A stretch of DNA of 42,282 nucleotides from an uncultured Gammaproteobacteria bacterium (GTDB taxonomy: Bacteria; Pseudomonadota; Gammaproteobacteria; Arenicellales; JAANXG01). Location of the stretch: NCBI GenBank assembly GCA_947258495.1, contig CAMYIN010000083.1, positions 1 to 42,282 on the forward strand. The letters run 5' to 3'. The notes under the pieces are model-generated. The model was not told the origin of the DNA and did no database searches. It saw only the letters and a list, made by a program, of their open reading frames with translations. A program made the translations under genes and the position numbers. Shown here piece after piece: positions 4,336 through 5,661 of the stretch (position 1 is its first letter; every line of letters starts with the position of its first letter).

Positions 4336-4932
4336 TATGCCATCCTCCACCGCGTCTACACACGCGCAGCTTGGCCACAAATGCCGTTGCCCGGCGGTCG
4401 ATCTGGTCTAAGCTGATTGTATAAGCAAAATAATTCCAAAATCGGTACGACGCACAATCGGGGGTGTCTTGTGGGAATTTTGCTGAGCGTAATTGGGATC
4501 GCGGTCGTGCTCATGGTGTATGTGTTCTGCGCCGCCGCACGCATCTTCCTCTCGGATCCCGACGAAAAACACCGTGCTTGCGTTGGCGACAAGCCGGCGA
4601 TGCCGAAACTTCGCTTCTAGTTGCTGACGCCAAAGCAGGACCCAGGCAGAAATCCCGTTGTTACAACTGCGGGTCCAGGTATCGGGCGGCGGGGCGCCGT
4701 GCGGGTCACCGCGGAAATGGGTAAGTGCACACACAATAACTGCCGTTTCCGCCCCGCGATTGGCGCGCGCCGTGGCGCGAGCATCGGCCGGAGGGCCCCT
4801 GTCTGCCGGAAGTGGCCGCCCATCATCCAACAGTTGCTCCGTCTCCCGATCGCGCTAAATTAGATAATAGACTTGGTTCAGGACACCTTCCTCAGACACC
4901 CCCACCCTTGTATCTGAATCAGGCTATTGGGA

Positions 4933-4959
4933 CCCCCGATTTCGTTCGGGGGTTTTTTT
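4933..4959 (+). terminator. Intrinsic terminator
   Basis: CCCCCGA-loop-TCGGGGG followed by TTTTTTT. Confidence 0.8.
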
Positions 4960-4977
4960 ATCGCGGAACCAGACCCC

Positions 4978-5124
4978 CTGCGTGGGCACGGGGTGGAACG
5001 CGATGCCGGCACGCTATCGTGCGGGCCACGGACGAGGTCGGTTGCGTCTCCGCCGACAGACGGCCGATAACCGTGTGTCCCGGCGTAGCCGGGATGATCG
5101 CCCGCTTATGAACGCGGGGAGTCT
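4978..5124. repeat. Structured repeat copy A (~145 nt)
   Basis: Imperfect direct repeat of 5483-5623; shares CGCACGCTATCGTGCGGGCCACGGACGAGG-like core and several hairpins. Confidence 0.65.
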
Positions 5125-5424
5125 CAAGGACCCGTGATCCCGTCCGCGTCACCCAGGTGTCGGAAATGGTCACCGCGGTACCAGCGGACGCACCCTGTAG
5201 GACCTCAAAATGAATATCACAATGCCTTCTAAGCCGCTGTTAGTGTGCGCGTTTATAGGATTTTACCGTGCGTTCTCACTATTTGGCACGGTTCATGCTT
5301 TTACCTAACAGCAACCACGAATCTTTCCAGATGGGGTGTCTGAGGAAGGTTTCCCGGGGGGCGAATGGGGTGGTGTCCCGGGGTGTCTGAGGAAGGTGTC
5401 CCAAAGCGTTTAGCGGGGATCCCT

Positions 5425-5465
5425 AGGGGATATCTGAAACGGCGTATGCATTTCAGGTATCCCCT
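5425..5465. repeat. Long hairpin, possible terminator
   Basis: AGGGGATATCTGAAA ... TTTCAGGTATCCCCT, 15-bp stem with one G-T pair, followed by TTTACTT. Confidence 0.55.
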
Positions 5466-5482
5466 TTACTTATCGCCTGCAT

Positions 5483-5623
5483 CCCGTACGTGAGCACGGG
5501 GACGGACGCGAAGCCCGCACGCTATCGTGCGGGCCACGGACGAGGCCGATTGCGGCAAACGCCCGAGCCCCGTGTATCGCGGCGCAGCCGGGATGATTCC
5601 CGCGCATGGGCGCGGGGATAGTC
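5483..5623. repeat. Structured repeat copy B (~145 nt)
   Basis: Matches copy A; contains perfect hairpin GCCCGCACG-CTAT-CGTGCGGGC. Confidence 0.65.
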
Positions 5624-5661
5624 AATACTTCACGTAGCCCCGATCCCGCACGGCTCCGCCG

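Follow-up and report, generated by a model that had tools for sequence, protein, structure and literature searches.

The described elements closest to the repeat reported here are the palindrome-associated transposable elements (PATEs) of Haloquadratum walsbyi (PMC3119063), which lack terminal inverted repeats and target duplications, are too short to encode a transposase, and carry near-terminal palindromes similar to those of the resident IS605-type elements. In PATEs the distance from the end to the palindrome is longer at the 5' side than at the 3' side, a terminal oligonucleotide is conserved, core deletions occur and copies are often hit by other mobile elements; the terminal oligonucleotides are shared with the donor IS in many PATEs, but not in all (PMC3119063). 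Within the IS200/IS605 family, which has subterminal hairpins on one strand, the IS608 model places insertion 3' of a short T-rich site that is retained on the left, with guide sequences 5' of each hairpin; these guides set the cleavage sites, so shared terminal oligonucleotides are not strictly required (PMC5934647). The REP/BIME repeats with their TnpA-REP are likewise multi-copy intergenic palindromes linked to Y1 proteins (PMC8266576).

An initial annotation of the window, the 42,282-nucleotide stretch of gammaproteobacterial contig CAMYIN010000083.1 that was analysed here, had described two multi-hairpin repeats, A and B, and both are indeed present. The two can be aligned over 72 nt (86%) and, in a second block, over 45 nt (80%), blastn with copy A as query gave 28 matches in its own genome at E<=2e-7, copy B among them at E=2e-25, and both were found by a covariance model (Table 1), a similarity far above chance. 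The covariance model extends the repeats as originally delimited by about 15-20 nt on the left. Of the hairpins listed at that stage, GCCCGCACG-CTAT-CGTGCGGGC is perfect in copy B and has one mismatch in copy A, and the GGC-GYA-GCC hairpin and the 3' hairpin occur in both copies. Copy B has a degenerate left end and an internal deletion within hairpin C. With a probability of about 0.7, we interpret A and B as copies of a 172-nt non-autonomous IS200/IS605-type mobile DNA element, that is, a PATE. This reading is carried by a dispersed family that has sharp ends and no terminal inverted repeat, target duplication or transposase gene, that conserves its fold and differs in copy number between genomes, and whose terminal hairpins resemble those of an IS200-like element.

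Table 1. Positions in the window of copies A and B and of the parts of copy A, with the evidence for each.
Feature	Position	Strand	Evidence
Copy A, full-length element, 172 nt	4957..5128	+	covariance model match 1-172, 151 bits, E=3.6e-37; alignment A1
TTTAT, left terminal oligonucleotide; putative left cleavage/target site	4957..4961	+	sharp 5' boundary at T1
Hairpin A, left subterminal palindrome, consensus CCCCGTGC-gtga-GCACGGGG	4974..4993	+	consensus fold; resembles IS200-like left-end hairpin in G005:C16
Hairpin B, consensus GCCCGCACG-gtat-CGTGCGGGC	5005..5026	+	2.4% divergence, the lowest of any stem
Hairpin C, long imperfect internal stem	5027..5074	+	consensus fold
Hairpin D, consensus TATCCCGGC-gta-GCCGGGATG; the GGC-GYA-GCC hairpin of the initial annotation	5075..5095	+	three other copies carry the inverted loop, tac
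Hairpin E, right subterminal palindrome, consensus TTCCCCGCGC-atga-GCGCGGGGA; the 3' hairpin of the initial annotation	5098..5119	+	stem matches IS200-like right end
Right terminal oligonucleotide, consensus AGATTCAAT, in copy A AGTCTCAAG; putative right cleavage site	5120..5128	+	sharp 3' boundary
Copy B, eroded element	5469..5626	+	covariance model match 122.8 bits, E=1.2e-29

An alignment of 37 copies (A1) is the basis of the 172-nt consensus, TTTATCGCGGAACAAAACCCCGTGCGTGAGCACGGGGATGGACGCGATGCCCGCACGGTATCGTGCGGGCCACGG...TATCCCGGCGTAGCCGGGATGATTCCCCGCGCATAAGCGCGGGGAGATTCAAT, and a covariance model (R1) was used to scan the genome that contains the window (G000), five congeners and the wider order. 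A covariance-model search of the genome and its relatives had been proposed in the initial annotation, and it yielded many further copies in G000 and its congeners: about 35 places in G000 (74% complete), about 19 in G003 (86% complete) and one or two each in G001, G002, G004 and G005, so that copy number differs greatly within what is a single genus. Weak antisense matches in the covariance table are the same palindromic places on the opposite strand. The same model found no copy in 103 other genomes of the order; a further MAG, ES_M_Gamma_001, has a single degraded copy that is partly N-masked. Distant blastn gave no match to the element in plasmids, nor did an exact pattern search in viral contigs. 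Copies from different species are up to 98.8% identical (a G003 copy and a G005 copy), and copies cluster by genome, though not strictly (9 label changes against 18.3 after shuffling), so that the spread was apparently recent and lineage-wise. Truncated and interrupted copies are common, and fragments truncated at the 3' end and at the 5' end both occur.

The ends of the element, TTTAT|CGCGG...AGATTCAAT|, are sharp, a step of one base at either end taking the column information from about 1-1.5 bits down to about 0.1-0.2, and the flanks of the copies are unrelated to one another. There is no target duplication among 41 two-ended copies, in which flank identity equals that of a shuffled-flank control, and no terminal inverted repeat, the two ends sharing only 4 of 20 bases in that arrangement. 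Palindromes lie near both termini, hairpin A 17 nt (including TTTAT) and hairpin E 9 nt from the respective end. The element holds no transposase gene, its 172 nt falling short of half the length of the 142-codon tnpA in the IS200-like element of this genus. Copies are mostly intergenic, and their orientation relative to neighbouring genes, which were called approximately by a simple codon score, is mixed with no consistent side. Taken together, the sharp ends, unrelated flanks, fragments, mixed orientation, clustering by genome and 98.8% identity between G003 and G005 leave us nearly certain that this dispersed repeat is mobile.

Copies lie just 3' of transcription-terminator hairpins more often than expected: 7 of 53, copy A among them, directly follow a strong terminator-like hairpin, as compared with 0 of 48 right ends and a background of about 1%. 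In copy A, TTTAT runs on from the T-tract of the upstream terminator, and the T-tracts of paralogous terminators are similarly long; position 4 is the least conserved of the left end. No alignable empty site turned up when paralogous terminators, or the sequence flanking the IS in G003, were used as a guide, the flanks not being homologous on both sides. At the right flanks of eight copies (L027, L034, L161, L111, L013, L158, L117 and L155), opposite-strand ORFs predicted by the approximate gene calls end exactly at a TGA in the element tail ATTGAATC, which suggests insertions at the 3' ends of genes.

The genus has an IS200-like element encoding a 142-aa Y1 transposase, intact in G005:C16, whereas G000 retains of this type only a 5'-truncated gene in C28 and a copy in C203 that is cut by the contig end. 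The 142-aa protein is an IS200/IS605 family transposase (NCBIfam NF033573, 90.9 bits), and its nearest solved structure is ISHp608 TnpA (E=2e-16). The left hairpin of the IS, CCCCGTGC-ttga-GC.GGGG, and its right hairpin, CCCCGCGC-gtaa-GCGCGGGG, correspond to element hairpins A and E in both position and strand; in G005:C16 both score above 99.5% of random windows, in the correct order and on the correct strand. The stem CCCCGCGC-N4-GCGCGGGG occurs at 29 sites in the six genomes as compared with 0 in a reversed control, and 28 of these sites are element copies, one of them a fragment. The exception, G000:C203:92-111, is the right end of the IS, directly after the IS200-like tnpA, where the right stem is perfect. 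That stem is no general property of IS200 elements, since the hairpins of other IS200-type relatives within the class are different ones.

The terminal oligonucleotides of the IS and the element differ, with ..GTATCTAT at the right end of the IS against ..AGATTCAAT in the element, and at the left they are only similar (TTTAT/TTAAT); for this reason the element may be moved by a relative of the IS200-like enzyme seen here. No autonomous element with the same terminal oligonucleotides as the repeat was found, and the true donor IS may be missing from these assemblies. G003, which has many copies, contains no detectable relative of the 142-aa transposase in an assembly that is 86% complete. All six genomes carry other Y1 proteins, many of them RAYT-like, which could in principle be the enzyme.

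We infer the responsible enzyme, the cleavage positions and the single-strand route as follows. The top strand, when single-stranded, would fold the subterminal palindromes, hairpins A and E, which would be bound by a Y1 (HUH) transposase of IS200 type encoded elsewhere. The transposase would cut 3' of the T-rich left site (TTTAT), the presumed target site, and at the right end (..TTCAAT), where the right terminal oligonucleotide would serve as the cleavage site, and the strand, travelling as a single-stranded intermediate, would insert at another T-rich site and leave no target duplication. By position, TTTAT and GATT/TTCAAT fit the target and guide roles of an IS608-type system: like IS608, the element has subterminal hairpins on one strand and a short T-rich site retained on the left, the IS608 right site TCAA recurs in its right end ATTCAAT, and the four nucleotides before hairpin E (GATT) resemble the IS608 right guide GAAT. 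Unlike IS608 (PMC5934647) it has no tnpA or tnpB, and its left site is TTTAT where that of IS608 is TTAC. With the Haloquadratum PATEs (PMC3119063) it shares each of the features given above for that group, from the missing inverted repeats and duplications to the longer 5' distance, the conserved terminal oligonucleotide, the core deletions and the insertions by other elements, except that its terminal oligonucleotides are not those of the IS found here; on this reading the repeat forms a new family within a group already described. It differs from them in being bacterial (Gammaproteobacteria) and unrelated in sequence, in having three extra conserved internal hairpins, and in landing frequently 3' of terminators.

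The consensus folds into five hairpins, A to E, with a computed energy of -114 kcal/mol for this GC-rich 172-mer. Paired G/C sites diverge by 3.9% as compared with 16.9% for unpaired G/C sites (p=1e-4), and the fold is therefore kept; together with the many further copies, this bears out the proposal in the initial annotation that the fold matters. The argument from compensatory change does not hold up. The T-A to C-G change noted in the 3' hairpin does exist (A1 columns 159/164), but the neighbouring pair is broken in copy A (G-C to T.C), which leaves one pair only. Across the 37 copies, 6 cells are changed on both sides where 2.7 are expected from shuffled data (a count of 6 is reached in 21 of 500 shuffles), pairs with a double change number 4 as compared with 2.4 after shuffling, and the RNAalifold covariation term is +0.21, so that the significant covariation expected of a structured RNA family is not seen. 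The internal hairpins B, C and D are as conserved as the ends, B being the best of all. In some copies a loop is present as its exact reverse complement (D gta/tac in 3; E atga/tcat in 3 and acga/tcgt in 1; A gtga/tcac in 1), which suggests that the palindrome loops sometimes invert at the DNA level, and some of these cases, with loops of 3-4 nt, may be coincidence.

A structured regulatory RNA, either a multi-copy sRNA or a cis element with its RNA fold under selection, would account for stems that are conserved relative to loops, for the conserved internal hairpins and for the very stable fold. It is nevertheless very unlikely: covariation is weak, no Rfam family is reached at gathering score, copies take no consistent orientation or side relative to genes, truncated and interrupted copies are common, and nearly all relatives do without a copy. 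The functional-RNA reading implied by the initial annotation thus finds no positive support, and it is disfavoured because the copy number, sharp ends and patchy distribution are typical of a mobile DNA element. Conservation of the internal hairpins to the level of the ends goes beyond what simple recognition by a transposase needs and counts against an IS200-type mover; it would be expected if hairpins B-C-D formed a conserved core, either a structured RNA or a protein-binding site, carried along by a transposase-spread element, an alternative that we regard as unlikely. If the element were a mobile vehicle for a guide RNA of TnpB/IscB type (omega RNA), of which the two ends and the RNA are left, this would explain a hairpin and terminal oligonucleotide at the element end, with the flank beyond serving as guide, and one Rfam match, sot0042, points that way at 31 bits (cutoff 88). 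We discarded this identity, as the match is below threshold and has no counterpart on copies A and B at E<=1, and we rejected a TnpB-guided reading, the TnpB C-terminal domain PF07282 being found in 0 of the 6 genomes of the genus; the omega-RNA explanation is extremely improbable.

Two further explanations keep the repeat mobile and change the enzyme. The first, which we consider unlikely, is a REP/BIME-like repeat mobilised by a RAYT (TnpA-REP), a domesticated Y1 transposase, in place of an IS200-type enzyme. RAYT-sized Y1 proteins (225-275 aa) are present in the genus and the element, like REP/BIME (PMC8266576), is palindromic, multi-copy and mostly intergenic, but no GTAG-type tetranucleotide stands directly 5' of the consensus hairpins (AAAA precedes A, CGAT precedes B, GTAT precedes D and GATT precedes E), a 172-nt unit with defined ends and five hairpins in fixed order is longer than REPs of 20-50 nt, and there is no clustering near RAYT genes, with no element copy in the flanks of about 1.5 kb of any Y1 gene (18 Y1 matches). 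It is highly improbable that the repeat is some other mobile element, such as a retro-transposed RNA or the substrate of an unknown recombinase, and that its likeness to the IS200-like hairpins is coincidence or convergence on GC-rich palindromes. The differing terminal oligonucleotides would agree with this, and the preference for positions after terminators recalls group IIC introns, but the two ends correspond to those of the IS in their order and strand, and elsewhere in the genomes the perfect stem is not found.

Copy A had also been placed inside a pair of 22-bp inverted repeats, which is literally true but not meaningful. The arm at 4881-4902 is the loop of a separate small-RNA-like unit (window ~4866-4959, + strand), against whose T-tract copy A abuts and which has four copies in the genome, the others in G000:C34, C47 and C132 (L172, L173 and L176). 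Each unit has a -10-like sequence, a long stem closing an identical loop region ACACCTTCCTCAGACACCCCCACC and then a Rho-independent terminator; the terminator stem varies among the four copies, and the loop holds an anti-Shine-Dalgarno-like CTTCCTC. A weak Rfam hint to anti-hemB (E=0.026) is below the cutoff. The link between the element and the inverted repeats is coincidental and the repeats do not bound the element; a TIR element around copy A was rejected on these grounds. Two tandem stretches at window 5333-5355 and 5380-5402 (+ strand; GGGGTGTCTGAGGAAGGT[T/G]TCCC) are complementary over 22 nt to the loop of the small-RNA-like unit and could be a sponge or a duplication remnant.

Several copies of the element appear to have been entered by other sequences. 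In L012, L018 and L151 an identical foreign sequence starting GTGTGCCGGGCATG begins at GAGAT^TCAAT and replaces the element tail, and in L014 a fourth copy ends with its contig at the GAGAT^ position. From its GUGYG start and an Rfam hint (E-value 0.72), this foreign sequence, GTGTGCCGGGCATGCCGGCTGAC..., is a probable group II intron 5' end, and the element seems to be its landing site, since it occurs three times in the genome, each time at an element copy. L152 and L059 break off where they meet a sequence, ..GGTGAGAAATGC.GGCTAGGGT.., that the two have in common and that is probably the end of another insertion sequence.

With only two copies at hand, a DNA parasite can pass for a structured RNA with 'compensatory' changes. 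Read as PATEs, the copies add a well-delimited and apparently recently active family to the few non-autonomous IS200/IS605-type elements described, one notable for a measurable preference for sites behind terminators and for the conservation of its internal core. If the element is in fact a transposase-spread carrier, the B-C-D core would be kept for a function, for example control of terminator read-through or stabilisation of transcripts after insertion at terminators, and the element would be a mobile regulatory module.
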